This document shows positions 12,583-42,049 of a stretch of 52,143 bases of DNA, in pieces. How positions within the stretch are numbered: position 1 is the stretch's first letter; each line of letters starts with the position of its first letter. Location: positions 1-52,143 of the forward strand of contig ONMI01000038.1 in the NCBI GenBank assembly GCA_900318915.1, in the 5' to 3' direction. Below the pieces are notes generated by a model. It saw only the letters and a list, made by a program, of their open reading frames with translations, made no database searches and was not told the origin of the DNA. The stretch is from an uncultured Prevotellaceae bacterium. Its GTDB lineage: Bacteria; Bacteroidota; Bacteroidia; Bacteroidales; Bacteroidaceae. The position numbers and the translations under genes were made by a program.

Positions 12583-15500
12583 TTATCTCACCACAAGGGT
12601 GTAAGCGGGAGCCATTCCCACATATTCCGGTGCATAGGCGCACTGAGCCTTGCAGGTTCCGGTGTCGTAGGTTCCGGCACGGTCTATATAGTATTCTGTT
12701 TCTATCACATGGGTGCCTTTCGGCATTCTGTCGAAGTAATAGCAGGTCTGGTTGTCCTGCGGTGCGCAGTAGCATCCGTTGCGGTAACCGCTCAACTGGC
12801 TGACGGGTTCCATGCAAGCAGCCCTGCGGTCCACCACCTGCACGAAGTCGAGGTCGCGTTCGGCCTTCATGGTGATGCGCACCCTGATGCGGTCGCCCAC
12901 CTTCAGCTCGGCGGGATTGCCCACAATCTCGCGTTTGACGGAGATTTCCGAGGCAGAGGCGGTCACCTCGGTGCTCTTCTGGTCGAACTGAGCATAGAGT
13001 GCGCCCCACGAGGTGCCTTGCGAAGTCTTCTCGGCGGCGAAGGCCTGTGAGCCGTTGGCCGGTACGGTGGTCTTGACATATCCCAATCCGGCAGTGGCAC
13101 CGTCGATGTGAATATTCTTACCGTTCAGGGTGAAGCGGGTCTGCTCGCCATTATCGAGCGCCTGCAGGTTTCCGTCGAGGAAGGCGTAGGCCGCATTGAC
13201 CGTATTGATATAGGTGTTCCAACTGTGTCCGCGCTTCTCATGGAGGAGCCATCTCTGCATTTCCTCCACGGTCTGCAGGTCATTGGGCCGTACGGCCTTG
13301 AAGGCCTCGATGGCGGCCACCTCAGTAGGAATCTTGTAATCGCACCATGAGTAGTAAGCACGCCTTGTATCGAAATAGCGTCCGGCCTCCTCGGTCATGA
13401 CGGAGTACTGGCTGATGCTCTCCACGAACTCATCGGCGAGTTGCTTTTCCTTGTTGGCGGCGAAGATGACAGCTGCCGTTGCCTTGCCGTAGATGGTGAA
13501 CTCGGTGGCCTTGTCGCGCAGCAGTCCGATGAAGTATTTCTGTGCGTCGTTCACTGCCGAGGGGAGTTTCCTTCCGTCGAGTGCGAAGATATACATAATC
13601 TGCAAGGCGGTCTCGCTGGGACGCACATGCTTCTTATTTTTCGCCTCTTTCTTGGTTTCCTTCATCTCTTCTACCAGGTACTTGCCCAGGAAGTCGAAAG
13701 CCGATTTCACCATCGGGGCGGTGTTTTGCTGATTGCCAATCATATGGTTCAGGCGAACGAGCGTCTGGGTGACGCTCACGGTCATGTAGGCACTGCCCGA
13801 CATGCCGGGCCACCAGCTCCACGAGCCGTCGCTGTTCTGCAGTTTTTTCATTTTGTAGAGGGCAGCCTGCAGGCGGCTGCTGAGCAGCGCCTCGTCGAAG
13901 TAGAGTGCCAGGTCGCGCTTCTGTGCCGTCTCGCTCTCGGCCACTCTCACCCAAGGCGTCTCGGAGAGCACGAGGTCTTTCAGTTCCTGGTTTTTCTCGA
14001 GCGGACTGGTCAGACTGCCGTTGTCCGCCTCTTGCTGCCATTTCATGACATTCTCGCGGATGGCGGGCGAAAGGCCCATGATATAGCTGCCGATGGTGTT
14101 GGCATAATAGGCCGAAGCCTGGCTCACCACGTCGTCGCTCACCAAGGTAGCGAGGCTGGGCATGGTCTGAACCACGAGCCAGGCCGGATTGTTGGTATAC
14201 TCCACGGTGAGTTTTCCGTCCTTGATGCCCTCTGCGAAGAGTTGGTCGAGTTTCACAGCCATCCGTCCGGGTCCATGTTGTGTGAAGGGATAAGTGCGGA
14301 GCACCATCTCATGGTCGGGCAGTACGGGCAGGTAATGCTGTTCGCCGTCGGAATAGCCTTTTCCGCTCACGGTCACCCTGCACACATAGAGGGGCAGCTT
14401 ACCGTCGGCCTTGACGTCGAAGAGCACGCTGCTGCCCTGTCCCGGATCCAGGCGGTAATTTTTGTTCTGCTTGTAGACCGTTTTCATCGTCTCCGGGTCG
14501 AGGAGTGCGAGGGTTGCCACACCGTTTATCGTCTTGTCGGTGTTGTTGAATACCCTTGCGGGCAGTGTGGCCATATCGTTGATGCGGAGGAAGCGCGGCA
14601 CATTGGGCTGCACCATGACGTCTTTCTGCGCCACAGCCTCGGCGGTTATCTGTCCGTGGTTCATCTCCTGGTCGGTAGCCAGTGCCATCATCTTCCAGGT
14701 GGTCACGCTTTCGGGCAGGGTGAATTTCATCACCACATTTCCTTTCTGGTCGGCCACCAGGTCGGGCAAGAAGAAAGCGGTCTCGCTGAGATTCTCGCGC
14801 AATGACACTTTTTCGCCCTTTGCCCCCGGTGCGGCCGGAGCCTCTTCCTGATCGGCGGTGGTGTTTGAGTCCATGGGTTTTTCATCCATGACCATTTCGG
14901 CCTTCAAGGCCTGCATCTCGGCCATCTCTCCGTTCATAGCCTCCACCCTGGCGCTCTTCATCCTAATGGGTCCTCTTCTTCCATTGTCCGACCAATCTCT
15001 GATATAATATGAGTCAACGGAGAACAAGCTCTCATAGAAATGGTTGAGCAGCAGCGCCGGCTCATTGAGCAGTTTGTAAGGTTCTTCGGCGCCCATGCCA
15101 TAGGAATTGTGCGACATGAAATTCCACCGCATAGTGGGCAACGGCAGGTAGAAAGTAGGCTCGAACGCCCATCCGTGCGAATAGACTTGGTCGAGCGACT
15201 TGTCGTACATCGTAGCCAAGAGTTGTGCCGGAGCGGGTGTTCCGTCGGGTCGTGTCACCTTTAGGGTCCACTGCTCCTTCTGTCCCGGCTGGAGTCGGTC
15301 GCGGAAGGTAGCCCACTCCAGTTTGAGTCGTTTATCGGGCAAAGGTCTCAGCAGCGACACCTGGTGGGTATAGGTTTTACCTTCCTTCACCCAGGCGTAG
15401 GTCACCACGATGCCGTTTCCATAACTGCTCTGATAAGTGAACGGTCTGGTAAGGATACTGTTGTTCAGGTCGAACGAGCCCTCCTCCAACACGGTTTCGC

Positions 15501-18072
15501 CGCTCACGACCGTATAGAGCACATGGGTGTCGGAGTTAGAGCTTCCTACCTGCACATAGACAGGTTTTCCATCGGCGGAGAAGTGGGAGTCGGAGACATA
15601 GAACCAGTCGTCGGTTTCCTCGCAGGGAGTCTTGTCGTCGAGGCTGAACATCACGAAGTGGCACTTGATGGTGTCGTTGCCGCAGATGGCGGTGAGCAGG
15701 TGTTTGCCCGAACCGAGCGTATTAGGGTCAAATCCAACGGGCACCACCTTGTTGGTCGGTGCGGTATACGCCTTGGGGCTGTTGTTGATATAATAAGTCA
15801 CCACGCCGTCGACATCGGCGCCGGCCATGTTCTTGTAGTCGAAGCGGACGGTTTTCAAACTGTCGCGTTCTGTCCTTTGGGGCAAGTTGCAGGCCAGCAC
15901 TGTGCTGCGCGAGCCGAGCGGCAGTGAGATTTCGGCCGAGTGGGTCTCGCCGCCGGTGTCGGTGACATCGGCCACGGCCGTAATGGTGTAGAAGGAATAG
16001 CTGCGGGTGGCACCCTCGGGCAGCACCATGGGCATATCGACGGAGAAGTAGCCGTCGCTGTCGGTAGTGGCATTACCCTCGAGCAGGGTGGTTCCGCGGC
16101 CTCTACTGCCGCCCCACCACCAAGCATTCTGGCGTGTGACGACGTACTTCACCTTGGCGTCCTGTACGGGCACGCCGCTGTACATCATGGCGCGTCCCTT
16201 CACCACCACGGTATCGCCGGCCTGGTAGGTCTCATGTATCTCGGGGAAGGTCACCTCATAGGTGGGACGCTTGTACTGCTCCACGCGGAAGCCCTTGCGC
16301 GTTCCGTTCACCTCGACGGTGAATAAGCCTGTGAGTCCGTTTTCCGGAAGGTCGAATTCAGTGGCCGCCTTGCCGAAGGCGTCGGTGACGACCTCTTTTT
16401 GGTCCACCACCTTGCGGTTGGCGTCACTCAGTGTCACGGTGACACTTTGATTTTCGAGACTGGTAGTGGTCAGTTTGCCGTCATGGTAATAGGCTATGAC
16501 GGCCACATGCACTTTCTGCCCCGGCCGGTAGATGGAGCGGTCGGTATAGAGATTGTAGACATCGCGCGACTGCTGGGAGTTGTAATTGCGGAAGGTGGTG
16601 TAGACAGCCTCTTCCGGGCAGAACCTGTCGGTCTCCGTATAGGCGAAGACTTTCTCTACTTGCTTAATATTGTTGGGTGCCACATACCGCGCCTCCCCTT
16701 TCTCGTCGCAGGTCAGCTCCACGGTCTCATGATAATTGCCCTCCTTGTTGGTGCGGTCATACACGTTGAGCCGGAGGTGAGCACCGGGCAGCGGCTGTCC
16801 GGTGGTGGCGCTCACCACAACATAGCGTGTGGTGTTCTGGGGCAGTCCCATGGCCAGCACCTGCACATCGCTCACATAGTAGAGTCCTCTCTCCACGGGG
16901 ATATTCTTGTTGTCGGTCTGCAGTTCCACCAGGTACATGCCTACGGGCAATTCCGGTATCTCCAGCGAGTCTTCTACGGTCTTGTAGGCCGGTTGTCCGT
17001 CATAGCGCCGTTTTTGCTGTATCTGGTTGAGGGGCATCATGGCCGCTTTTACGAGCGCGAGGTCTTTATCCGGCCTCAGGTCATAGTCTCTGGAGGCATC
17101 GAGCGAGAGGCGGGTCACGGTCATGGTGATTTCCTGCACGTTGCGCAGCGTCATGCCGGTCATTTTCTTCGATTTGGAGGGCAGATTCCACTCATTGCCG
17201 AAGTAGACATGAAAGTAAGGCTGCGTGATTTTCTTCAGGTTGTTGCGCAGGATGTTGATTCTGGGCCAGCTGCCCCACTTGCTCACAGCATAGTTGATGA
17301 AGTTGACCCTATCCTCCAGTCCCTCGTCGGAACTGTCCATGAGCGAGTAGCGGTAAACGGCCAGTTCACCGGCCACTTTGATATCGCCATAGACGGTAAG
17401 CAGCGAGTCGACGAGTCGTCTGCGTTCAGAAGAAGGCAGGTATTTGCCGCCGTTCCAATGTCCGGAGCGCACCATTTCGCAGGCTGTGAGGCAGGCGGCC
17501 GTGCGGAGCGAGGTGTTGCGGTAGTAGTTATGAAGCACAGCGTAGTCCTTGGCCTCATAGCCTATCACGCTGAGCAGGTCGTTGTCGAACCAGCGTCCGT
17601 CATAGCCGTTTTCAATGAGTTGCTGATATTCCGACACCTTATGGCGTGCCAGGAGTTCGGGCTGTTGAAGCGCAGCCTTGAAATAGGGCTCAGCCTTGCT
17701 GCGGCCCAGTTGGTAATTGTCTCTGTAGAGGCATCCGAGTACGGTGTTCCACACAGCGGCGAGTACGGGGTCCTTGGCCCTTGCCTCCTGTTCCATCCGC
17801 TCCAGCCGGGCCACTTGTCCTGATATGGAGTCGGGGGTGAGTGCACACATCACCTGGGTGTTGCGCAGCGATGCTTTCAGCAAATGTCCATACGATTTTT
17901 CACGACTGGCCTTGTCGATGATAAGGCTGAGTTTTTCCATTTCCGACTTGGGAAGGTCTTTTTTAGAGGCTTCTTCCACTTGCTTCCAAAGCGACTTATA
18001 CGACTGTCCGCTTACCGAAAACGGCAAGAGGCAGAAGATGGCCAATATGTAGTGAAAAAACTTCATTTGCAA
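12583..18072 (-). CDS. Alpha-2-macroglobulin family protein (large extracytoplasmic, thioester-less)
   Basis: The 1,829-aa product has a signal peptide (MKFFHYILAIFCLLPFSVSG), a helical N-terminal region, tandem macroglobulin MG domains (NLYTDRSIYRPGQKVHV, the MG2 signature, near residue 510), a central A2M domain (EKVSLRENLSETAFFLPDL, WKMMALATDQEM) and an alpha/alpha toroid (QNSDGSWSWWPGMSG). Bacterial macroglobulins are thought to trap foreign proteases in the periplasm. In thioester-bearing members a CxEQ motif begins the toroid; here the corresponding stretch before YYANT reads SDDVVSQASA, with no cysteine, so covalent trapping is unlikely. It is the first gene of the operon, behind a near-perfect promoter. 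Another M in the open frame (MQMKFF) precedes the chosen one by two residues. Confidence 0.9.
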   Translation of the reverse strand: MQMKFFHYILAIFCLLPFSVSGQSYKSLWKQVEEASKKDLPKSEMEKLSLIIDKASREKSYGHLLKASLRNTQVMCALTPDSISGQVARLERMEQEARAKDPVLAAVWNTVLGCLYRDNYQLGRSKAEPYFKAALQQPELLARHKVSEYQQLIENGYDGRWFDNDLLSVIGYEAKDYAVLHNYYRNTSLRTAACLTACEMVRSGHWNGGKYLPSSERRRLVDSLLTVYGDIKVAGELAVYRYSLMDSSDEGLEDRVNFINYAVSKWGSWPRINILRNNLKKITQPYFHVYFGNEWNLPSKSKKMTGMTLRNVQEITMTVTRLSLDASRDYDLRPDKDLALVKAAMMPLNQIQQKRRYDGQPAYKTVEDSLEIPELPVGMYLVELQTDNKNIPVERGLYYVSDVQVLAMGLPQNTTRYVVVSATTGQPLPGAHLRLNVYDRTNKEGNYHETVELTCDEKGEARYVAPNNIKQVEKVFAYTETDRFCPEEAVYTTFRNYNSQQSRDVYNLYTDRSIYRPGQKVHVAVIAYYHDGKLTTTSLENQSVTVTLSDANRKVVDQKEVVTDAFGKAATEFDLPENGLTGLFTVEVNGTRKGFRVEQYKRPTYEVTFPEIHETYQAGDTVVVKGRAMMYSGVPVQDAKVKYVVTRQNAWWWGGSRGRGTTLLEGNATTDSDGYFSVDMPMVLPEGATRSYSFYTITAVADVTDTGGETHSAEISLPLGSRSTVLACNLPQRTERDSLKTVRFDYKNMAGADVDGVVTYYINNSPKAYTAPTNKVVPVGFDPNTLGSGKHLLTAICGNDTIKCHFVMFSLDDKTPCEETDDWFYVSDSHFSADGKPVYVQVGSSNSDTHVLYTVVSGETVLEEGSFDLNNSILTRPFTYQSSYGNGIVVTYAWVKEGKTYTHQVSLLRPLPDKRLKLEWATFRDRLQPGQKEQWTLKVTRPDGTPAPAQLLATMYDKSLDQVYSHGWAFEPTFYLPLPTMRWNFMSHNSYGMGAEEPYKLLNEPALLLNHFYESLFSVDSYYIRDWSDNGRRGPIRMKSARVEAMNGEMAEMQALKAEMVMDEKPMDSNTTADQEEAPAAPGAKGEKVSLRENLSETAFFLPDLVADQKGNVVMKFTLPESVTTWKMMALATDQEMNHGQITAEAVAQKDVMVQPNVPRFLRINDMATLPARVFNNTDKTINGVATLALLDPETMKTVYKQNKNYRLDPGQGSSVLFDVKADGKLPLYVCRVTVSGKGYSDGEQHYLPVLPDHEMVLRTYPFTQHGPGRMAVKLDQLFAEGIKDGKLTVEYTNNPAWLVVQTMPSLATLVSDDVVSQASAYYANTIGSYIMGLSPAIRENVMKWQQEADNGSLTSPLEKNQELKDLVLSETPWVRVAESETAQKRDLALYFDEALLSSRLQAALYKMKKLQNSDGSWSWWPGMSGSAYMTVSVTQTLVRLNHMIGNQQNTAPMVKSAFDFLGKYLVEEMKETKKEAKNKKHVRPSETALQIMYIFALDGRKLPSAVNDAQKYFIGLLRDKATEFTIYGKATAAVIFAANKEKQLADEFVESISQYSVMTEEAGRYFDTRRAYYSWCDYKIPTEVAAIEAFKAVRPNDLQTVEEMQRWLLHEKRGHSWNTYINTVNAAYAFLDGNLQALDNGEQTRFTLNGKNIHIDGATAGLGYVKTTVPANGSQAFAAEKTSQGTSWGALYAQFDQKSTEVTASASEISVKREIVGNPAELKVGDRIRVRITMKAERDLDFVQVVDRRAACMEPVSQLSGYRNGCYCAPQDNQTCYYFDRMPKGTHVIETEYYIDRAGTYDTGTCKAQCAYAPEYVGMAPAYTLVVR

Positions 18073-25147: not shown

Positions 25148-26374
25148 TTACTGGTGTTTGCGCACCAGTTTGCTGATGGCTTTGTCGAGCGATTCTGAAG
25201 GTTCTATGATGTTGTAGTCTTTCCAGAACTCCGGGTCGCGGAAGTAGTCCACCTTGTCGTAGAAGGCGTCTTTCGAGTCGAAGGAGCTTCTTCCCGAGAT
25301 AGGCTGCACATTTTCCTCCTTGCGGTCGGTGACCACCATCTCGCAGAAGGCGGCGAAGGAAGTGGAGAAGAGCCGCCGTTTCCAGTCGCAGTTGAAGCGG
25401 AAGGTATTGCGTATGTAGCTAATGGTGGTGAGACCGTTTTCATATTTGTAGTCGATAAGGCACGACATCTCCTTGGGTTTGAATCTCACCCCTGAAGGTT
25501 TTCGCACCAGCATGTATTGGGTGGCCTTGGCCCTGTCGCTCATATCGAGTTCCAACTCGGCCCGTGTAAAGGCCAGCGTTTCGCGGTCTATGTAGAGTTT
25601 TCCGTAGTAGAGCGCGTAGGGCAGTACGTTGTCGGGCGAGATTTGCACCACATACTGCACCCGGTCGTCGATAGTGGCCATGGGAAGCATGGTGAAGCGG
25701 TAGTTGGCCAGGTCTTCCGGATTGAGCAGGAAGTCGAGGTTCTTGGCTATGTCGAGCTGTATGGGCTGCACGGGGCCTCCCATTACCTTCACGGTGAGGG
25801 TATCATTCTGTTTGGGACTGAGCAGCCGTCGCCCTTTTATGATGGCCACCTTGTCGCGGTAGTTGGCCTTATCGTAGGCGGTCTTGTACATATCCACCAC
25901 CCCTTCGGCCACGTACACGTAGTGATTGCGCTTCATGGCCGTCTCCCGATAAAAGCAGTTGTAGAGTTGGGGTGACTTGCTGTAGTTCTCGGGTATCTTG
26001 GAGATGGCAATATTCACCAAGTCGCGTGGATTCTCCGTCCACACCACAATTTCGCTGAGGCTGATAGAGGTAGGTGAGAGTTTAACGACCAGATCTTCCA
26101 GCCGGTTGCTGTTCACCCTCATTTTCTTGGTCTTATAGCCCAGGTGCGACACCACAATCACCTCAGGTGCGGCATCCACCTTGAGCGTGAAGAATCCGTC
26201 GTCGTTGGTCACCACCGAGATGCCCGAACGGGGGTCCGAGACACTGGCCTGCGGCACGAGGTCATTGTTTTCGGCATTCGTCACGGTGCCGCTTATCACC
26301 ACTTTCTGAGCTTGGCCCACAAGAGCCGCCATCAGCAGGAGAAGCGTAAACAGAGGTCTTGCTATGCTGTTCAT
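25148..26374 (-). CDS. Carboxypeptidase-like regulatory domain protein, exported
   Basis: The 408-aa product has a signal peptide (MNSIARPLFTLLLLMAALVGQAQ), a CarboxypepD_reg-like beta-sandwich at residues 25-110 (VVISGTVTNAENNDLVPQASV, NDDGFFTLKV, VVSHLGYKTKKMRV) and a long C-terminal region with beta-rich, barrel-like strands (YALYYGKLYIDRETLAFTRAEL). The layout resembles DUF5686-type envelope proteins of Bacteroidetes, shortened. Such N-terminal domains also open SusC transporters, but no plug or barrel domain of that type follows. The start was set at ATG 26374 because the signal peptide begins there. The gene stands alone behind its own promoter. Function is unknown. Confidence 0.75.
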   Translation of the reverse strand: MNSIARPLFTLLLLMAALVGQAQKVVISGTVTNAENNDLVPQASVSDPRSGISVVTNDDGFFTLKVDAAPEVIVVSHLGYKTKKMRVNSNRLEDLVVKLSPTSISLSEIVVWTENPRDLVNIAISKIPENYSKSPQLYNCFYRETAMKRNHYVYVAEGVVDMYKTAYDKANYRDKVAIIKGRRLLSPKQNDTLTVKVMGGPVQPIQLDIAKNLDFLLNPEDLANYRFTMLPMATIDDRVQYVVQISPDNVLPYALYYGKLYIDRETLAFTRAELELDMSDRAKATQYMLVRKPSGVRFKPKEMSCLIDYKYENGLTTISYIRNTFRFNCDWKRRLFSTSFAAFCEMVVTDRKEENVQPISGRSSFDSKDAFYDKVDYFRDPEFWKDYNIIEPSESLDKAISKLVRKHQ

Positions 26375-26436: not shown

Positions 26437-26495
26437 TAGCACATTGAGAAATAAATAACAAATCTCCGTTTCCCTTTTCACTTTTTAGAAGAATC

Positions 26496-26517
26496 GTTAA
26501 GGTGTGTTCTATTAATT
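26496..26517 (+). repeat. Left terminal inverted repeat of the MITE-like element
   Basis: This is the 22-bp left end. It matches the reverse complement of 26678-26699 at 21 of 22 positions; the tenth base is T here and G on the other arm. Confidence 0.85.
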
Positions 26518-26677
26518 CTGTTTGATATTAAAGGCAGTATTCCATCGAATTTGTTTCGGTCGCTTTTTGTTTTTATTCGTGTGCATAGCGTCAAGTCTCA
26601 TCGGTCGTATAGCACGCTATACTCCCTCTTCAACTTACACTCTGCACACGACTAAAAATCAAAAATCGCCTCGACAT

Positions 26678-26699
26678 AATTAATAGAACCCACCTTAAC
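26678..26699 (-). repeat. Right terminal inverted repeat of the MITE-like element
   Basis: This is the 22-bp right end, followed immediately by the second AGAATC copy. It lies 26 bases beyond the NRPS stop codon, so the insertion did not cut the coding region. Confidence 0.85.
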
Positions 26700-26724
26700 A
26701 GAATCACCACCGGACTCTCTCACG

Positions 26725-29700
26725 CTACCCCCATTCCACGCCCAAACATTGCAGCAAGGCGGCGGTACGGGTACAATCAAATGCATTGAAATTGTTGACA
26801 CTGACCAATTGGAGATGGGCCATGGCGGGCAACAGTCCGCGTTCATTTTCACCCTCTGCTGCCATCTCCTCCACCATCTTACGGAAGGCCGCATAGTTTA
26901 CCGTCTTCACACAGATTTCATGGCGCGAGAGCAGTGCGCCCATGGTCATAACGGAGGGGTTGCCCACATGAGCCACCGGCGGCATTTTCACGGCGGCGGC
27001 CAGCCGGACGATGGCTGTCGACACGACATCCACGGGCGAGAGGTCTATGCGCACATCGGCCATGCCTTCCGGTATAACACCCAACTGTCCGCACAGCCGT
27101 TCCATCATCAGAAGGCCATTTTCCGTGGCATTATATTGAAAGCGTCCGTCATAGGACCTGCGGTCAAGATTGCCCACGCGCACCACGCAGGCATCGAGTC
27201 CTTTCTGCTCCATTCCCTCCAGCACCATACGCTCCGCCTCAAATTTCGACAGACTGTAAGGTTCTCCGAAATGCTGACCGATATAGAAATCTTGTTCCGT
27301 CAGTACAGGCACCTTATCCAGACCGCCGCCATGCAAACCCGCCACGCCAAGGGTAGAGACCTGCAAGAGGCGGGCACGGTGACTGCAACAGAAGTCAATG
27401 ACAGGCATCAAGGCATCCGTATTCACGGCCCGAAGCACGTCGGGCCTTGCAAAATGCCGCACCTCCGCCGCACAATTGATTACGGTGCGAATGCCGCAAT
27501 CGACGAAGGGACTCATGAAACGGCTGTCGGTCATATCGCCCGGAACCGCAACAATACGGTCAAGCCAAGCCGCAACGGTTTCCTCGCCGAAATAGAATTG
27601 GAGTCTGTCACGCAAGCGCCACAATGCCTGTTCCTTGGAGGCAGCCCTCACCAGACAATAAGCCGTGCCCTCACCTTCCGAGAGGAAAGCCTGCAGCACA
27701 TGTGCACCCAGAAAGCCGGTAGCGCCTAAAAGCAGTACATTCCCCTTGAGCGAACCTTTCTTCAGAGAAGCCGCCAAAGGAGCCGATTGCAAGAAATGGT
27801 TTTGTCTACTGCAATCGGACGTTATTATATAGGGTGCCACTTCGTCGGGCTGGAGCAAATGGGCTGCCAAAGCTCGCGGAGTGGGATAAGTGAAAACACG
27901 GCCATATTCCACTGCGCAATGCCCACGCTGCAACTGCGCCACCAAGGACATAACGGACAGCGAGGTACCTCCCAATTCAAAAAAGTCATCGTCAATGCCC
28001 ACCTCAGGCAAGCCGAGTGTCTGGGCAAAGGCAGCGCACAACTGCCGTTCGACCTTATTCCGAGGTGCTGCGTAAGATGGTCGAGGGCTGTCCTGGGGAG
28101 CCGGCAAACGACTGCGGTCGGTCTTTCCATTCCTGGTCAGCGGCAATTCATCCAAAAGCAGCCATTGAGACGGAATCATATAGGAAGGCAACCGCTGCCG
28201 CAGGCCGTTCGACAATTCATTGACCGATACAGCACGGTCGGCAGTATAATAGGCGCACAGACGTTCGCCCGCCCCCAGCCGATAAGGCATCACGCAGACG
28301 GCCGTGACATGAGGAAGCAGAGCGATTTGGTGTTCCACCTCCTCGAGGCTGACTCTATAGCCATTGACCTTAACCAACCGGTCGGCGCGCCCTACATATT
28401 CAAGCTGGCCCTCCCGGTTCCACCGCACAAGATCGCCCGTGCGGTAAACTGCCCGGTCCGTGAAACAGCACCGCAAGAACCTTTCGGCCGTGAGCCGCTG
28501 TTCCCGCCAATAGCCCAGGGCGGTCTGTGGTCCGGCGATGCACAATTCGCCCACGGCGCCTTGCGGAAGCAGGCATCCGTAGGGGTCAGTCACATAAGCC
28601 GCCAGATTGTCAAGCGGACGGCCTATGGGCACAGGGTCATGGTGTTGTCCGGGAAGTATTACAAAGTAGGTGGCATCCACGCAACATTCGGTGGGTCCAT
28701 AGGTATTGTAGACAGGGCAGGACACCTGCGGTGCTTTGTCCATTCTCTCGCCGCCGAGACAGAGGTAGCGGAGCGAGGTATGCGGCCGCTGAGCGATGAG
28801 CATGCCCAAGGCTGTGGTATAGCAGCCACCGGTGATGCAGTGGGTATCGATGAAACGTTGTATCCGCTCCACATCATGGCGCACCTCATCGGGCATAAGA
28901 AACAAGGTTCCTCCCACGGTGAGCACGGGGAAGAGGTCTTCTATCGAGGCATCGAAAGCCAAGGAAGAATGACAACTGATACGGCTCTGCCCGTCAAGAG
29001 GCCAGTGGCGCACCAGAAAATGTATCAGATTGGTCAGCGCCCTGTGGGGCACCATCACGCCTTTGGCCGGCCCTGTGGTGCCCGAGGTGTAAATCATATA
29101 GGCCGCTGCAGCAGGCGAGGTCTCATTCACCGGTGGCAGGTCTTGCCCATCGCCAGCAGACGGCAAGCAGTCGGGCCGCAATATCACGGCCGGTAAAAGT
29201 TCTTCAAGGATATGGTTCCGGTAGTCAGCAGGCCAGGCAGGCTCCAGGGGCACATAGGCTGCTCCCGTTCGCATCACGGCAATGGCGGCCACAAGGAAGC
29301 CACATACCGGCATGGCCTCGATGGCCACGAACGCCCCCTCTTTGGCACCCCTGCCTGAGAGCCAGCAGGCCAGGCGTTGTGAGGCTTGTTCTATCTGTGC
29401 ATAGGTGAGTTGTTCACAACCGTCGCTTACCGCCACTGCCTCGGGTGTTTGGGCGGCCTGCCTTAGGAAGAGGTCAATAAAGGTAAGGTGCTTGTCATAA
29501 TCAAGTCTCTCACCTTGAGAGAGAGCCATCAAAGCCATTGTCTCCTGATTGTCTACAATTTCTACCTTTCCGATATCGGCATGCGGATGCGACATGATGC
29601 TGTCGATACACACCTCCATGGCATGGGCCACCATCTTCACCGTGGCCGCATCCAACTGCTCCACTCCGGTATCCACCCGTATCTCATAGTCGGTACGGTG

Positions 29701-30801
29701 GCTGTACACCAAACAATTCAACTCATTGTCAGCCGCCTCTTTGGGCAGTTGTATTCCCTTGACCGTCTCTCCGCCCAGCGCCACCTCCTCCATAATATCC
29801 CCGCCCTGGAAGGCGAAAGTGACGGATGCCGACTGCTGCAGGTCTTTGCAGAAATGAGTATAGGGATAGGCGGCATGACGAACCGACTCCATTAAGGGCC
29901 GCCGAAGCCGCCGGATAAAATCGAGGGTTTCTCCCTCAGCGTCCACATCTACCACAAAGGGCACCGTACGCACGAACATGCCATAGGCATCGCGAAGTTT
30001 GCGGTCAAAACGGCCATGGCTCAAAGTGGCGAAGGCCACCTGCGGCTGACGGCTCAACTTGGCCATTACGATACAGAAGGCAGCCATGAAGAGCCAGTTG
30101 GGCTGCACTTGATGGTCCCGGCACCAACTGTCCACTCCTTCACGAGACAGCCAGACTGAGATAGATGTTGCACCATCCACCGACGGCACTGCAGGAGAGG
30201 GCAAAGAAGTGAAGGGCACCCCACTAAAAAGTTGCCCGTAATAGTCGCGGGCGGCACAATAGGCCGAAGATCCATCCTCCTTTTCTTCCGTTTCAGCAGC
30301 TTCGTAGAGCGTGCAGCGCTCCACATCGACAGTTTTTCCGGCAAAGGCGGCAGGAAGATCCCTGTCCATCAGGTTGCGGGCCAAGGTAAAACCGTCGGCA
30401 ATAATATGGTGAAAATCCATGAGCAACCACACATACTGCTCCGTTTCCACCACCTCAAAACGGCAGAGCGGCTCATGGCCAAAGAGGCGGAAAGGCTGCA
30501 CAAAACCGTCATTCAGATAGGCCGTAAGCTGCGATTCTTGCATGGTGCGGCGCACGATATCAATCCGCAAGCCGGGGTCGGAATATTGCCGCACCCGGCC
30601 TTCCGCGTCGACGATAAGTCTCGTTCTCAATGCCGGTCTGCACTCCACCACCCTACGCAGTGCCTCTTCCAACCGTCCAGGCTCCACTTTCTTAGAAAAA
30701 GGGATGGCCGACGGCAGGTTGTAGCGGGTGCACTGTGGCTGTTTGCGGCAAGCCATCAGTATACCTGTCTGTGCATGCAGCAGCGGATAGGTTTTCTTCA
30801 A
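26725..30801 (-). CDS. Single-module nonribosomal peptide synthetase, C-A-T-reductase
   Basis: The 1,358-aa cytoplasmic enzyme reads in order: condensation domain (residues 1-430, active site HHIIADG at 131-137); adenylation domain (about 450-860; YTSGTTGPAKG near 570, FDASIEDLFP, NTYGPTECC, YRTGDLVRW, NGKTDR); thiolation domain with the phosphopantetheine serine near 947 in FFELGGTSLSV; and a C-terminal thioester reductase (about 1010-1358; LLGATGFLGAH, catalytic YSLSK near 1183). The expected product is an amino acid, probably N-acylated by the first domain, released as an aldehyde or alcohol. My reading of the pocket residues (D-A-E-C-C-G-T-V-D-K) has two acidic positions, which might suit a basic amino acid; this is tentative. 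The gene starts 21 bases after the cotH-like gene. No PPTase or exporter is adjacent. Confidence 0.93.
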   Translation of the reverse strand: MKKTYPLLHAQTGILMACRKQPQCTRYNLPSAIPFSKKVEPGRLEEALRRVVECRPALRTRLIVDAEGRVRQYSDPGLRIDIVRRTMQESQLTAYLNDGFVQPFRLFGHEPLCRFEVVETEQYVWLLMDFHHIIADGFTLARNLMDRDLPAAFAGKTVDVERCTLYEAAETEEKEDGSSAYCAARDYYGQLFSGVPFTSLPSPAVPSVDGATSISVWLSREGVDSWCRDHQVQPNWLFMAAFCIVMAKLSRQPQVAFATLSHGRFDRKLRDAYGMFVRTVPFVVDVDAEGETLDFIRRLRRPLMESVRHAAYPYTHFCKDLQQSASVTFAFQGGDIMEEVALGGETVKGIQLPKEAADNELNCLVYSHRTDYEIRVDTGVEQLDAATVKMVAHAMEVCIDSIMSHPHADIGKVEIVDNQETMALMALSQGERLDYDKHLTFIDLFLRQAAQTPEAVAVSDGCEQLTYAQIEQASQRLACWLSGRGAKEGAFVAIEAMPVCGFLVAAIAVMRTGAAYVPLEPAWPADYRNHILEELLPAVILRPDCLPSAGDGQDLPPVNETSPAAAAYMIYTSGTTGPAKGVMVPHRALTNLIHFLVRHWPLDGQSRISCHSSLAFDASIEDLFPVLTVGGTLFLMPDEVRHDVERIQRFIDTHCITGGCYTTALGMLIAQRPHTSLRYLCLGGERMDKAPQVSCPVYNTYGPTECCVDATYFVILPGQHHDPVPIGRPLDNLAAYVTDPYGCLLPQGAVGELCIAGPQTALGYWREQRLTAERFLRCCFTDRAVYRTGDLVRWNREGQLEYVGRADRLVKVNGYRVSLEEVEHQIALLPHVTAVCVMPYRLGAGERLCAYYTADRAVSVNELSNGLRQRLPSYMIPSQWLLLDELPLTRNGKTDRSRLPAPQDSPRPSYAAPRNKVERQLCAAFAQTLGLPEVGIDDDFFELGGTSLSVMSLVAQLQRGHCAVEYGRVFTYPTPRALAAHLLQPDEVAPYIITSDCSRQNHFLQSAPLAASLKKGSLKGNVLLLGATGFLGAHVLQAFLSEGEGTAYCLVRAASKEQALWRLRDRLQFYFGEETVAAWLDRIVAVPGDMTDSRFMSPFVDCGIRTVINCAAEVRHFARPDVLRAVNTDALMPVIDFCCSHRARLLQVSTLGVAGLHGGGLDKVPVLTEQDFYIGQHFGEPYSLSKFEAERMVLEGMEQKGLDACVVRVGNLDRRSYDGRFQYNATENGLLMMERLCGQLGVIPEGMADVRIDLSPVDVVSTAIVRLAAAVKMPPVAHVGNPSVMTMGALLSRHEICVKTVNYAAFRKMVEEMAAEGENERGLLPAMAHLQLVSVNNFNAFDCTRTAALLQCLGVEWG

Positions 30802-32492: not shown

Positions 32493-32535
32493 CAACATCA
32501 AACAGAAAAAACGCCCAAACACAATGTACTTCACC

Positions 32536-34725
32536 ATGAAAAGATTTTTCACCAGCATGGTCATGACCTTATCCGTCACCATCGGGGTCATGGCACAGGG
32601 ACTCCCCCCGTATATGGATGACTCAAAGCCCCTTGAGACCCGTGTGAAAGACGCCCTCTCACGGATGACCCTCGAGGAAAAAGTGGCTCTCTGCCACGCA
32701 CAGTCGAAATTCTCCTCGGCCGGTGTGCCTCGTCTTGGCATACCCGAGATATGGATGAGCGACGGTCCCCACGGCGTGCGCGCCGAGATAAACTGGAACA
32801 ACTGGGGCCACGCCGAGTGGACCAACGACTCGTGCACCGCTTTTCCTGCTCTCACCTGCCTGGCAGCCACCTGGAATCCCCAGATGTCGCTGCTCTACGG
32901 ACGCATGGTGGGCGAAGAAGCCCGCTACCGCAGCAAGGACATTCTGCTCGGCCCCGGTGTGAACATCTACCGTACCCCACTCAACGGCCGCAACTTCGAG
33001 TATATGGGCGAGGATCCCTATCTGGCCAGTGTGATGGTGGTGCCCTATGTGCAGGGACTGCAGAGCAATGGTGTGGCCGCCTGTGTGAAGCACTACGCCC
33101 TGAACAACCAGGAGCGGTGGCGCGGCCACATCGATGTACAGGTGAGCGACCGCGCCCTGCGCGAGATTTACCTGCCGGCCTTCAAGGCGGCCGCCACCGA
33201 GGGCGGTGCCTGGAGTTTCATGGGCAGTTACAACAAGTTCCGCGGCGAGCATGCCTGCAGCAACAAGATTCTGCTGCGCGACATCCTCAAGGACGAGTGG
33301 CAATGGGACGGCGTAGTGGTGACCGACTGGGGTGGTTGCCACGACACCTACACCTCGGCCATGCATGGTCTGGACATCGAGATGGGCACCGGCACCAACG
33401 GTCTTACCTCTGAGGCCGAATTCACCTACGACGACTACTACCTGGGCAAGGAATACCGCAAGATGCTCAAGGAGGGCAAAATACCCATGAGCGTGCTCGA
33501 CGAACAGGCCAGCCGCATTCTGCGCCTTATCTTCCGCACCTCCATGAATCCGCGCCACCCCTACGGCCGCTTCACCTGCCAGGACCACTACGATGCCTGC
33601 CGGCAGATAGCCGACGAGGGCATCGTGCTGCTGAAGAACGAGGGCGGTCTGCTGCCCATCGACGCCAACCGCTACAACCGCATCCTGGTGGTGGGCGAGA
33701 ACGGCACCAAGAGTCTGACCGAAGGCGGCGGCTCCAGCGAGCTGAAAGTGAAACGCGAAATATCGCCCCTCGAGGGTCTGCAGGCCGTTTACGGCAGCAA
33801 GGTGACCTACGCCCAGGGCTATCAGAGCGGCCGCTTCCTGTATGCCCGTGAAGACGCCGTCGACGAGGCCACCCAGCAACGGCTGCGCCGCGAGGCGGTG
33901 GAGAAGGCCCGCGAGGCCGACCTTATCGTCTTTGTGGGCGGACTGAACAAGAACTACCTGCAGGACTGCGAGGGCGGCGACCGCATACAGTACGGTCTTC
34001 CCTTCGGTCAGGAGGAGCTCATCGACGAGCTCGCCACCCTGAAGAAACCCATTGTGATGGTGCTGCTCACCGGCAACGCCGTGGCTATGCCGTGGCTCAA
34101 GAAGGTGGGTGCCGTGGTGCAGGGCTGGTACATCGGTTCTGAGGCCGGCGAGGCCCTCGCCGACGTGCTCAGCGGCGCCGTGAACCCGAGCGGCAAGCTG
34201 CCCTTCACTTTCCCCGTAAAACTGGAAGACAACGCCGCCCACTCTTTCGGTCAGCTGGCCTATCCGGGCGACAGCATCCGTGAGGAGTACATGGAAGACA
34301 TCCTGGTGGGCTACCGCTGGCACGACACCAAGAAGATTGCCCCGCAGTTCGCCTTTGGCCATGGTCTGAGCTACACCACTTTCAAATACAGCAAACCCGT
34401 GCTTTCCAGCAAGCAGCTCAGCGCCGGCGGCAAGATTACTGTGAGCGTTGACGTGACCAACACCGGCAGCCGCGAGGGCAAAGAGGTGGTGCAGCTGTAC
34501 ATAGGCGATGACAAATGCTCCGTGCTGCGCCCCGTGAAAGAGCTGAAACACTTCCATAAAGTGTCACTCAAGCCCGGCGAGACAAAAGAGGTGTCCTTCG
34601 TCATCACCCCCGACGACCTGCAATTCTACGACGGCGGATGGAAGACGGAACCGGGCAGTTTCACCGTGCACATCGGCTCCTCCTCGCGCGACATACGCGG
34701 CAAAGCACAGTTCCGCCTGCTCTAA
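32536..34725 (+). CDS. GH3 family beta-glucosidase
   Basis: The 729-aa periplasmic enzyme has a signal peptide (MKRFFTSMVMTLSVTIGVMAQ), the GH3 TIM barrel (residues 25-330), the alpha/beta sandwich and a C-terminal fibronectin type III-like domain (SVDVTNTGSREGKEVVQLY). The nucleophile is Asp264 in VVTDWGGCHDT; substrate-binding motifs GPGVNIYRTPLNGRNFEYMGEDPYL (in two parts) and VKHYALNN are intact. GH3 enzymes of this layout release glucose from the non-reducing ends of beta-glucans. ATG 32524 (MYFTMKRF) is an alternative start. It leads a three-gene operon and resembles the second GH3 protein encoded at 49976, especially around the active site. Confidence 0.93.
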   Translation: MKRFFTSMVMTLSVTIGVMAQGLPPYMDDSKPLETRVKDALSRMTLEEKVALCHAQSKFSSAGVPRLGIPEIWMSDGPHGVRAEINWNNWGHAEWTNDSCTAFPALTCLAATWNPQMSLLYGRMVGEEARYRSKDILLGPGVNIYRTPLNGRNFEYMGEDPYLASVMVVPYVQGLQSNGVAACVKHYALNNQERWRGHIDVQVSDRALREIYLPAFKAAATEGGAWSFMGSYNKFRGEHACSNKILLRDILKDEWQWDGVVVTDWGGCHDTYTSAMHGLDIEMGTGTNGLTSEAEFTYDDYYLGKEYRKMLKEGKIPMSVLDEQASRILRLIFRTSMNPRHPYGRFTCQDHYDACRQIADEGIVLLKNEGGLLPIDANRYNRILVVGENGTKSLTEGGGSSELKVKREISPLEGLQAVYGSKVTYAQGYQSGRFLYAREDAVDEATQQRLRREAVEKAREADLIVFVGGLNKNYLQDCEGGDRIQYGLPFGQEELIDELATLKKPIVMVLLTGNAVAMPWLKKVGAVVQGWYIGSEAGEALADVLSGAVNPSGKLPFTFPVKLEDNAAHSFGQLAYPGDSIREEYMEDILVGYRWHDTKKIAPQFAFGHGLSYTTFKYSKPVLSSKQLSAGGKITVSVDVTNTGSREGKEVVQLYIGDDKCSVLRPVKELKHFHKVSLKPGETKEVSFVITPDDLQFYDGGWKTEPGSFTVHIGSSSRDIRGKAQFRLL

Positions 34726-38833: not shown

Positions 38834-41800
38834 ATGAAAAAAGTAAGGTTACTATTTCTGTTGTCGGCATTCATCATGTCGATAACTGCCTTTGCCCAAT
38901 CATCGGGCACTGTGACTGACGAGAACGGAGACCCCATCATAGGCGCCTCCGTCATCGAGAGTGGAAACGCCAAGAACGGCACCGTGACCGATATCGACGG
39001 CCATTTCACCATCGATGTAGCCGAAGGCAGAAACCTCGTCATCTCCTATATAGGATATGAGACACAGACCGTGCCGGCCCGCCGCAACATGACCGTGGTG
39101 CTGAAAGAAGACCACCAGATGCTCAGCGACGTGGTCGTCATCGGCTACGGTGTGCAGAAGAAGAGCGTGGTGACGGCCTCCATCGCCAAGGTGGCCGCCG
39201 AAGACCTGGAGGGCAAGAGTCCCGTGCGTGTGGACAATGCCCTGAAAGGTCTGGCTGCCGGTGTGAACGTCACCTCCAGTTCCGGACAGCCTGGTGCAGC
39301 CCCCAAGGTTCGCATCCGCGGTGCCGGCACCATCAACGACAGCGACCCGCTCTACATCGTCGACGGCATGCCGATGGGCCAGGGCGGCATCGACTACCTG
39401 AACCCCAACGACATCGAGTCGATTGAAGTGCTCAAGGATGCCGCCTCGGGCGCCATCTACGGCTCGCGTGCCGCCAACGGTGTGATTCTCGTGACCACCA
39501 AGAAAGGCAAGAAGGGCAAGGCCAACATCAGCTACAACTTCTCGCAGGGCTGGCAGAGCAGCTGGCGGAAGCGCGACGTGACCAGTGCCACCGACTATGC
39601 CATCCTTCAGAATGAGATGTATGTGAACGGCGGCAGCGCTCCCCTCTATGCCGACCCCTACCACCTGACCGATGCCAACGGCGACCCCATCAACGGTTTC
39701 GGCACCGACTGGCAGGAGCTGGTGTTCAACGACAATGCCCCCGTGCAGAACCACGACGTGAGTGTGAGCGGTGCCACCGACAAGCTCAACTACTTCCTCT
39801 CCATGGGCTACTACACCCAGGAAGGTATCGTGGGCGGCAACTACGGCAAGTCGAACTATAACCGTATGTCGCTCCGCTCCAACAACATCTATAATGTATA
39901 CGACATGTCGGACGAGCGCAACTTCCTCAACAAGCTCGACATCACCGTCAATCTCTCCTACTCGCGCATCAAGGCCACCGGCATCAGCGAGAACTCCGAG
40001 TGGGGTACCATCCTGGGGTCAGCCCTCTACATGTCGCCCCTGCTGCCCGTGACGCTGAAAGGCGACATCGCCCAGCGGCAGATAGACAACTACGCCAGCT
40101 ACGACCTGCTGCGCGACGCCAACGGCGACCCCTACACCATACCCAACTATCTGGGTTCCTATCAGGAGATGAACAACCCCGTGGCCATGCTTGCCGTGCC
40201 CGAGACCAAGAACTGGACCCATAAGTTCGTGCCGCAGTTTGTCTTCGACCTGCAGCTGTGGGACAACCTGAAATACCACTTCAACTACAGCGCCGACCTG
40301 GCCTTCTGGGGCAGCGACGGTGCCGTACGTTCGCTCTACTACCTCTCCGGCAACAACAAGCAGGAGCACACCAGCGCCAGCGCCTCCAAATATCAGAGCA
40401 CTACCTGGCAGTTGGAGAACACGCTGACCTACGACAAGACCTTCGGCGACCACAGCTTTGCCGTAGTGCTGGGACAGTCGGCCATGAAGAGCAAGGGCGA
40501 CTATCTCTCCGGCAACCGCTGGAACCTGGTGAACCCCGACAAGCCCTCCATCAACTATGCCACCGGCGATGTGGTGGACGGCATCGCACAGTTTGGTGTG
40601 GCCGGTGCCCCCTGGGCCGAGCACACCCTGAGCTCCCTCTTCGCCCGTCTGAGCTACAACTATGCCGAGCGCTACATGCTGCAGGCCACCGTGCGCCGCG
40701 ACGGTTCGAGCCGCTTCGGTACCAACAACCGCTATGCCACCTTCCCCTCCGTTTCGCTGGGCTGGAACCTGCGCAACGAGCCCTTCATGGACGGCAAGGC
40801 CAGCTGGCTCTCCACCGCCAAGCTGCGCGCCAGCTGGGGTAAGAACGGTAACGAGAGCATCGGCGACTTCCGCTACACGGTGCTCACCGCCATGGGCAAC
40901 AACGTGCTGCTGGGCAAGGACGCCCTGAAATACATCGGCTCCAAGGCCAACGGCCTGGCCAATCCCGACCTGAAGTGGGAGGAGAGTGAGCAGACCGACA
41001 TCGGTATCGACCTCGGCTTCCTGAACAACGCCCTCACCTTCACGGCCGACTACTACATCAAGAAGACCAACGGCATGCTGCTCACCCAGCCCATCCCCAG
41101 CTATGTGGGCGAGACCAAGCCCATCGGCAACGTGGGCGACATGGAGAACTCCGGTTTCGAGTTTGAGCTGGGCTACAAGTTCCACATCGCCGATGCCCGC
41201 TTCGCCATCAAGGGCAACGCCACCTATCTGCACAACGAGCTGAAGAACCTGGGCAACGACACCGGCTATCTCGACTACGACAGCGTGCAGGGCATCTCCG
41301 GCGGCGGCACCCGCGCCATGAACGGCGAGCCCTTCCCCTTCTTCTTCGGTTACAAGACCGACGGCATCTTCCAGACCATGGACGAGGTGAACGCCTACAC
41401 CAACAGCACCGGCGGCCTGATACAGCCCGACGCACGTCCCGGTTTCGTTCGCTTCGTCGATGTGAACGGCGATGGTGCCATCACCCCCGACGACCGTACG
41501 AACATCGGTAACGGCACCCCGACCTGGACCTTCGGTCTGAACTTCAACGCCGAGTGGAAAGGTTTCGACTTCAACCTCTTCCTGCAGGGTGTGAGCGGCG
41601 CCGATGTGCTCGACGGCACCTACCGCAGCGATGTCTACTCCGGCAACTATCCCACCTGGATGCTCGACCGCTGGACCGGTCCCGGCACCTCGAACAAATA
41701 CCCCATGCTGATGCTGGGCGACGATGTGAACTGGCGCATGAGCGACCTCTACATACACGACGCCTCCTACTGCCGCATCAAGAACATCTCGCTGGGCTAC

Positions 41801-41998
41801 ACCCTGCCGCAGACCCTCACGAAGAAATTCTTCGTGGAGCGCCTCCGCTTCTTCGTCATGGCCGAGAACCTGGCCACCTGGACCAAATACTGGGGATTCG
41901 ATCCTGAAATCTCCTCCGGCGGCACCTCACTTGGTGTAGACCGCGGTATCTATCCGCAGGCACGCACCTACACCATCGGTTTCAACATCACCTTCTAA
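38834..41998 (+). CDS. SusC/RagA family TonB-dependent outer-membrane transporter
   Basis: The 1,054-aa protein has a signal peptide (MKKVRLLFLLSAFIMSITAFA), an N-terminal carboxypeptidase-regulatory-like domain (GTVTDENGDPIIGASVI), the plug domain with SDVVVIGYGVQKKSVVT, DNALKGLAAGVNV and GSRAANGVILVTTKKGK, and a long barrel ending in ARTYTIGFNITF. SusC imports oligosaccharides across the outer membrane with TonB energy while SusD acts as its lid. The other genes of the operon point to beta-glucan oligosaccharides. susD follows after 51 bases. Codon use strongly favours C-ending codons, as in highly expressed genes. Confidence 0.97.
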   Translation: MKKVRLLFLLSAFIMSITAFAQSSGTVTDENGDPIIGASVIESGNAKNGTVTDIDGHFTIDVAEGRNLVISYIGYETQTVPARRNMTVVLKEDHQMLSDVVVIGYGVQKKSVVTASIAKVAAEDLEGKSPVRVDNALKGLAAGVNVTSSSGQPGAAPKVRIRGAGTINDSDPLYIVDGMPMGQGGIDYLNPNDIESIEVLKDAASGAIYGSRAANGVILVTTKKGKKGKANISYNFSQGWQSSWRKRDVTSATDYAILQNEMYVNGGSAPLYADPYHLTDANGDPINGFGTDWQELVFNDNAPVQNHDVSVSGATDKLNYFLSMGYYTQEGIVGGNYGKSNYNRMSLRSNNIYNVYDMSDERNFLNKLDITVNLSYSRIKATGISENSEWGTILGSALYMSPLLPVTLKGDIAQRQIDNYASYDLLRDANGDPYTIPNYLGSYQEMNNPVAMLAVPETKNWTHKFVPQFVFDLQLWDNLKYHFNYSADLAFWGSDGAVRSLYYLSGNNKQEHTSASASKYQSTTWQLENTLTYDKTFGDHSFAVVLGQSAMKSKGDYLSGNRWNLVNPDKPSINYATGDVVDGIAQFGVAGAPWAEHTLSSLFARLSYNYAERYMLQATVRRDGSSRFGTNNRYATFPSVSLGWNLRNEPFMDGKASWLSTAKLRASWGKNGNESIGDFRYTVLTAMGNNVLLGKDALKYIGSKANGLANPDLKWEESEQTDIGIDLGFLNNALTFTADYYIKKTNGMLLTQPIPSYVGETKPIGNVGDMENSGFEFELGYKFHIADARFAIKGNATYLHNELKNLGNDTGYLDYDSVQGISGGGTRAMNGEPFPFFFGYKTDGIFQTMDEVNAYTNSTGGLIQPDARPGFVRFVDVNGDGAITPDDRTNIGNGTPTWTFGLNFNAEWKGFDFNLFLQGVSGADVLDGTYRSDVYSGNYPTWMLDRWTGPGTSNKYPMLMLGDDVNWRMSDLYIHDASYCRIKNISLGYTLPQTLTKKFFVERLRFFVMAENLATWTKYWGFDPEISSGGTSLGVDRGIYPQARTYTIGFNITF

Positions 41999-42049
41999 GG
42001 AGAGCTACTATCATACAATATGAACATAACGCATCAATTATCTGAGATT

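Follow-up and report, generated by a model that had tools for sequence, protein, structure and literature searches.

Limits of the element and its target duplication

The window analysed here, 52,143 nucleotides of DNA from an uncultured Prevotellaceae bacterium, contains a hairpin-forming stretch behind an NRPS gene, and we asked whether this stretch is a mobile element, where it begins and ends and which transposase might move it. An earlier note had described it as a MITE-like element of 204 bp that encodes no transposase and is bounded by a 6-bp AGAATC target duplication. Its nature as a MITE was borne out but the limits were not: the element is a MITE of 194 bp (Table 1), which leaves no room for a transposase, and an open reading frame of at least 150 amino acids is neither present within it nor could it fit. 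We consider it very probable that this is a non-autonomous MITE of the IS5 family, IS1168/IS1169-like group, moved by a transposase made elsewhere.

The 22-bp inverted repeat with one mismatch on which the earlier limits were based was recovered in the computed repeats (GTTAAGGTG[T/G]GTTCTATTAATT) and can be extended to 26 nt at 92%. Its outer GTTAA/TTAAC is the palindromic TTAA duplication plus one flanking base and not element DNA; the terminal inverted repeats of the window MITE comprise 17 bp with one mismatch. The duplication was deduced from other elements, starting with a set of 44 short ones. Most of this set came from genomes G380 and G179, while G009, G010 and the own genome contributed a few. 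Outside their AGGTG..CACCT ends, the flanks read T-N-N on the left (T in 41 of 44) and N-N-A on the right (A in 40 of 44), and the terminal A and T are therefore part of a duplicated 4-bp TNNA target. A 2-bp duplication, seen in 35 of the 44 elements, was rejected as it became one of 4 bp once the terminal A/T was assigned to the target. The 4-bp flanks were identical in 34 of 44 elements of this set compared with 16% when flanks of different elements were paired, in 55 of 67 distinct elements that nearly all belong to the subfamily of the window, and in 96 of 123 distinct paired elements, with TTAA, TTTA and TATA as the commonest sequences. TNNA occupied the left flank in 98 and the right flank in 99 of these 123 elements; 27 lacked an exact 4-bp duplication and none had a 5-bp repeat at the same boundary.

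The direct repeat AGAATC does exist, but it lies outside the element, and its interpretation as a 6-bp target duplication was rejected because most of the paired elements show an identical 4-bp repeat instead. Its presence is unremarkable, since 13 of the 123 elements have some such 6-bp direct repeat within 20 nt outside the duplication.

Table 1. Features of the MITE and its neighbouring genes in the window
Feature	Position	Strand	Basis
MITE proper, without transposase	26501..26694	.	ends and duplication deduced from other elements
Left target-site duplication TTAA	26497..26500	.	4-bp rule, 96/123 elements identical
Right target-site duplication TTAA	26695..26698	.	same 4-bp rule, 96/123 identical
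Left terminal inverted repeat GGTGTGTTCTATTAATT	26501..26517	+	repeat computation on window
Right terminal inverted repeat GGTGGGTTCTATTAATT (read on - strand)	26678..26694	-	repeat computation
AGAATC, first copy, outside element, not target duplication	26490..26495	+	repeats; 123-element flank comparison
AGAATC, second copy, outside element	26700..26705	+	repeats; 123-element flank comparison
Variable insert of left arm, mostly unpaired, most divergent between copies; shortened in own copy L036	26521..26553	+	alignment
Left conserved box TTTCGGTCGCTTTT, also in Muribaculaceae copies bar single changes	26554..26567	+	two alignments
Left arm, main stem	26556..26596	+	helix 3
Central hairpin around GTATAGC-AC-GCTATAC	26603..26626	+	helix 4
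Right arm, main stem	26633..26674	+	helix 3
Right conserved box AAAATCGCCTCGAC, pairs with left box	26662..26675	+	alignments, predicted helices
CarboxypepD_reg-like domain protein, next gene downstream	25148..26374	-	start at internal ATG, inferred
Single-module NRPS: condensation, AMP-binding, PP-binding, NAD_binding_4 (C-terminal reductase-type domain)	26725..30801	-	domain search

Copies in the own genome and in relatives

The supposition that the host genome and its relatives harbor further copies proved correct. The own assembly, which comprises 3.38 Mb in 118 contigs and is 84.9% complete, contains 20 places that match the window element, and a 21-base end pattern with up to three mismatches found 23 ends compared with none for the reversed pattern. 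Thirteen of the 20 matches are cut off by a contig end and cover 97 to 174 bases, a pattern to be expected where a repeat interrupts an assembly. The own copies L053 and L051 keep one end and a stub of the other and have lost the middle.

When the whole element was used as query against 60 genomes including the own, four matched, namely the own genome, G009 and two with weak short matches. An 18-base end pattern with at most one mismatch matched 81 of 398 genus genomes, many of them with one or two hits, and for the reversed pattern one control hit was seen, in G216. End counts were highest in G200 (144), G380 (104), G179 (92), G109 (80) and G171 (76), and G198 had 37. As the interiors vary among genomes, the matches represent several MITE families that have their ends in common. 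Further families with the same 17-bp ends and other interiors were noticed at L011 (1410-1603), L057, L063 and L115-L154, and one such family occurs many times in G380 as copies of 194 bp.

When named genomes were scanned once with a 33-base pattern for the right end, 87 stretches were obtained, 80 of which entered the analysis. These 80 stem from MAGs of uncultured Prevotellaceae or Prevotella (SRR12081292_bin.73, SRR11784281_bin.96, RUG14088, RUG13201, RUG12198, Rumen_Coassembly_mag_1107, RGIG7584 and RGIG6036), from a Muribaculaceae MAG from horse faeces and from Candidatus Sodaliphilus limicaballi. These hosts suggest Prevotella as the own genus. At the level of the order, the end was present in 11 of 344 genomes, the own included, with 13 hits in the ten others; the reversed control gave about 11 hits, and the ends are therefore not enriched outside the genus in this sample. 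The Muribaculaceae copies come from the 33-base scan and not from the order-level sample. The window DNA had no match in plasmids, and two different patterns gave 0 and 2 matches in viral contigs.

Twenty selected copies in MAG SRR12081292_bin.73 are on average 99.9% identical (minimum 99.0%), a figure that leans high as the copies were chosen by a length of 192 and an inner motif, all having an exact right end, with exclusion of the 192-bp copy L252 that does not have the motif. This identity suggests a recent burst. In G200, 24 copies average 96% identity (79-100%), and the relatives of the window MITE look recently active. Two MITE copies of G200 (L212, 1347-1605, and L214, 1348-1605) share an additional segment of about 66 bp in the same interior position, which is either inherited from a common ancestor or a nested element. 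At L224 (3767-3800) and L259 (near base 85-100), TTAA or TTCA within the apparent terminus of another element is directly followed by an element end, which gives the impression that family members insert into each other's ends.

Empty sites

For 95 elements that have an exact duplication, the two flanks were fused with a single copy of the duplication between them, and the resulting sequences were compared against the collected loci; 22 hits, from six elements, spanned the junction. In the best case, an element at L294 (6570-6762) with TATA on both sides lies within a dispersed repeat, and two paralogous stretches on L274 of the same MAG, SRR12081292_bin.73, align without gaps and have TATA just once (97% over 184 bp and 98% over 129 bp); L315 gives the same match and is probably the same DNA as L274. 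A paralogous empty site is demonstrated for this sister copy. A second, weaker case is L140 compared with L112, with 83% over 110 bp, no gap and one TTAA. The dispersed repeat that served as the empty site has GGATTTGCAATCC-like units and was seen on L274 (7026-7209 and 3783-3911), L294, L217 and L285, the last of which, from bin.96, carries it more distantly than the bin.73 loci. At the window locus itself, the neighbour gene has matches of about 64-78% in many genomes. Among the matches listed for the other genus genomes (two candidates scored per genome) none reached the NRPS side, and the 3' part of the NRPS gene had no DNA match.

The proposed parent insertion sequence group

Insertion sequences with like ends, suspected in the earlier note, do exist. 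The closest autonomous elements are IS5-family insertion sequences of about 1.3 kb from the IS1168/IS1169 group, which resemble the MITE in their ends and in most cases have 4-bp duplications. In G149, one of the end matches is part of a 1,325-bp element with a 354-residue transposase (P0001, which has one extra leading residue). P0001 falls into the IS5 family (NCBIfam NF033581 transpos_IS5_4, 272 bits compared with a cut-off of 140) and contains the Pfam domains DDE_Tnp_1 and DUF772. Relatives were detected in 21 of 398 genus genomes at E 1e-20 and in 10 of 344 order genomes at E 1e-60. Those with 53-63% identity bear related ends, and nine IS5 relatives near 34% identity had no such pair of ends. 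Equal 4-bp flanks were found at the copies in G149, G083, G275, G232, L343 and L345 and unequal ones in G178; the relatives in G258, G259 and G119 are incomplete, being either truncated at a contig end or fragmentary. No solved structures were found for the transposase.

A motif-free scan, which looks for inverted ends with a 4-bp repeat and uses no prior end sequence, ranked such ends first at L155 (16 of 20 bases), L343 (16), L345 (15), L159 and L163 (13 each), with unrelated pairs reaching 14 of 20 so that the two values of 13 alone are not significant. The ends were GGTGAGTTCTAAAAATT/GGGGACTTCTAAAAATT for L343 and GGTGGGTTCTAAAAATT/GGGGACTTCTAAAAATT for L345. By the same scan the expected ends were unranked in L160, L162 and IS1169 (L355), different ends (GGGCACCTCTCAGAATT) appeared in L349 and in the three copies of G735, and no pair of ends emerged at the other order-level loci.

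In plasmids, the nearest named relatives were IS1169 (70.6% protein identity) and IS1168 (70.2%) of Bacteroides. The ends of IS1169 are GAGGAGTTCTATAAATT and GGTGAGTTCTATCAATT, and its right end differs from the MITE end by one mismatch in 16 scored bases. Over all 19 insertion sequence ends compared, there were 1 to 5 mismatches per 16 scored bases, and at most three in 14 of the 19. Ten out of 54,230 positions in seven insertion sequence loci matched the MITE end with up to three mismatches, which equals the number of insertion sequence ends scoring in this way. Beyond the 17-bp ends no similarity was detected (all z 2.8 or less) and the subterminal DNA is not in common. The MITE has only its ends in common with the insertion sequences, and its interior is a separate long palindrome.

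In the mechanism that we propose, a DDE transposase made elsewhere would recognise the 17-bp ends GGTGNGTTCTATTAATT, would move the 194-bp hairpin DNA and would insert it at AT-rich 4-bp targets, mostly TNNA, which would then be duplicated (here TTAA). We infer that the IS1168/IS1169 group, and not another, acts as the mover. Searches detected no P0001-like transposase in the own genome, G200, G380, G179, G109, G171 and G198, all of which are drafts, and an insertion sequence contig may have been lost from these draft MAGs. A search of 16 genomes with PF01609 retrieved other transposases, also in the own genome, and their neighbourhoods contained no such end pair.

Several other candidates for the autonomous element were discarded. 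L128 has 3317 bp between its ends, unequal flanks and open reading frames judged by eye, and L142, with 875 bp between its ends and an interior that reads N, was set aside. IS982-like fragments, named by eye, were rejected as parent, and so was an IS4-type open reading frame of G423, whose contig ends before a second element end.

Hairpin structure and gene context

The RNA of the stretch 26490-26705 folds far below shuffled sequences on both strands (z -10.2 and -9.4; 0 of 200 shuffles were as low). The second internal inverted repeat was found at 26564-26591 and 26637-26664 (28 nt, 82%), and the central palindrome GTATAGC-AC-GCTATAC is likewise present. Representatives at 96% identity numbered 19; ten Prevotellaceae copies were aligned, eight Muribaculaceae copies were treated apart and one member of another family was excluded. 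The ten-copy alignment has 61 predicted pairs, with 97.9% of the cells pairing. Two-sided changes affect 9 of the 61 pairs (16 cells), where shuffled alignments give 3.6 pairs and slid controls 0-3; the number of further pair types is not above shuffles. The eight Muribaculaceae copies keep the outer stem and the boxes and have one pair with a two-sided change. Selection on the fold and copying between the arms both explain the paired changes. The left box TTTCGGTCGCTTTT lay outside the query and recurs, apart from single changes, in copies from both Prevotellaceae and Muribaculaceae. The right end with its box AAAATCGCCTCGAC lay within the 33-base search pattern, so that its conservation is in part a product of that search.

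The window MITE sits between two minus-strand genes, encoding the NRPS and the CarboxypepD_reg-like protein. Its position behind the NRPS stop was confirmed: the distance between the stop codon and the MITE is 30 bases, and 25 bases separate position 26699 from the stop codon end (26725). The suggestion that the hairpin could stabilise or end the NRPS transcript gained no support, and the one terminator-like site (a compact G+C-rich stem followed by a T-run) found between 26350 and 26850 is located at 26825-26840, outside the element. The element has no Rfam match at the gathering cut-off; a tRNA was the sole hit in the window. The promoter motif type TTTG/TAnnTTTG had no match at the element.

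Gene context was evaluated with a crude ORF caller for 63 copies with a minimum length of 160 bp, among which one belongs to another family; six shorter ones had been dropped. The 58 copies that could be placed lie between tandem (36), convergent (13) or divergent genes (9), proportions that do not depart much from those at background TWWA sites (54.5%, 21.7% and 23.8%, respectively). A stop codon is within 60 bp in 58% of 62 copies compared with 33% of 831 TWWA sites, partly because an open reading frame runs into the element in 12 cases. The start-codon side shows no excess (35% within 60 bp, background 37%).

Elsewhere on the minus strand of the window, we noticed genes for a Peptidase C10 with an Inhibitor_I69 (Spi) domain (7928-9460) and for a large alpha-2-macroglobulin-like protein of 1829 residues (12583-18072). 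A TonB-dependent receptor and SusD-like pair (38834-43567, plus strand) and a glycoside hydrolase family 3 gene (32524-34725) possibly constitute a polysaccharide utilisation locus.

Alternative explanations

The MITE could be moved by a transposase of another family, its resemblance to IS5 ends being convergent or ancient. MITE-rich genomes were indeed searched without finding a transposase of the IS5 group, and in the Muribaculaceae genome G423 a MITE-like end (GGTAGGTTCTATTAAT) stands about 130 bp before an IS4-type transposase open reading frame (L334, 954-1887). The G423 insertion sequence, however, runs into the contig end with no second end seen, and its MITE-like end may be a MITE fragment beside an unrelated insertion sequence. 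Since, moreover, ends and 4-bp duplications agree with several copies of the IS5 group, we regard a mover from another family as unlikely. We see still less reason to assume a functional RNA or DNA hairpin, i.e. a transcript stabiliser, terminator or binding site that is selected behind genes and for which mobility is secondary. The very stable folds, the excess of two-sided changes over shuffles and the proximity to stop codons relative to TWWA sites, the 12 cases of genes running into the element included, speak for such a role. Against it stand copies of 99.9% identity at unrelated sites, the absence of both an Rfam match at the gathering cut-off and a terminator-like site at the element, and pair types that do not exceed those in shuffles; copying one arm from the other can also yield paired changes. 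This explanation is thus very improbable. Nothing was found in favour of plain intergenic DNA, or of a hairpin that arose by chance and was conserved where it stands, and dispersed copies with duplications together with the empty site refute it so that its probability is practically nil.

A more far-reaching proposal can be made. Rumen and gut Bacteroidales (Prevotella, Muribaculaceae) might harbor a superfamily of 'orphan' MITEs that expand into dozens of near-identical copies where no matching transposase is detectable. Paired changes would preserve their whole-length hairpin and paired inner boxes because movement, or persistence downstream of genes, depends on the folded DNA or RNA itself. 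We put this forward as a speculation that is rather doubtful at present.

Relation to known elements and implications

The 17-bp end of the MITE is nearly the same as that of IS1168/IS1169, IS5-family elements of Bacteroides fragilis, as exemplified by the IS1169 right end GGTGAGTTCTATCAATT, and relatives from this group have 4-bp duplications as the MITE does. The insertion sequences differ in being about 1.3 kb long, encoding a transposase and having no likeness to the MITE inside the ends; no 4-bp duplication was seen at the IS1169 copy examined. The MITEs BrickBuilt, MITE239, MITE464/PgRS and MITE700 of Porphyromonas gingivalis are also Bacteroidales MITEs with ends of IS5-family type, which are said to match ISPg elements of this family, and an empty site in other strains is described for a P. 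gingivalis MITE (PMC4596501). Their end sequences (GAGACC..., ACGTGAG...) are different, and BrickBuilt has tandem repeats. MITECca01 of Cardinium, of about 240 bp and with 169 mostly intergenic copies in one genome, resembles the window MITE as a Bacteroidota MITE of high copy number, but its parent belongs to the IS982 family and intact parents reside in the same genome (PMC9769881). PINSR, a 188-bp repeat of Prevotella intermedia/nigrescens, is similar in length, high copy number, intergenic location and occurrence in Prevotella; as PMC4755523 states that PINSR is without terminal inverted repeats, which the window element has, identity of the two was rejected.

We recognised no paper describing this MITE family in the open-licence PMC text, and the MITE population in Prevotella is apparently large and undescribed. 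An IS5-type MITE is an ordinary kind of element; the analysis supplies corrected limits and proposes a parent group for this population. The exact ends and the duplication rule allow copies to be annotated, and the element accounts for contig breaks such as those at 13 of the 20 own-genome matches. The near-identical copies provide a natural system for studying how MITEs move without a visible transposase gene in the genome.
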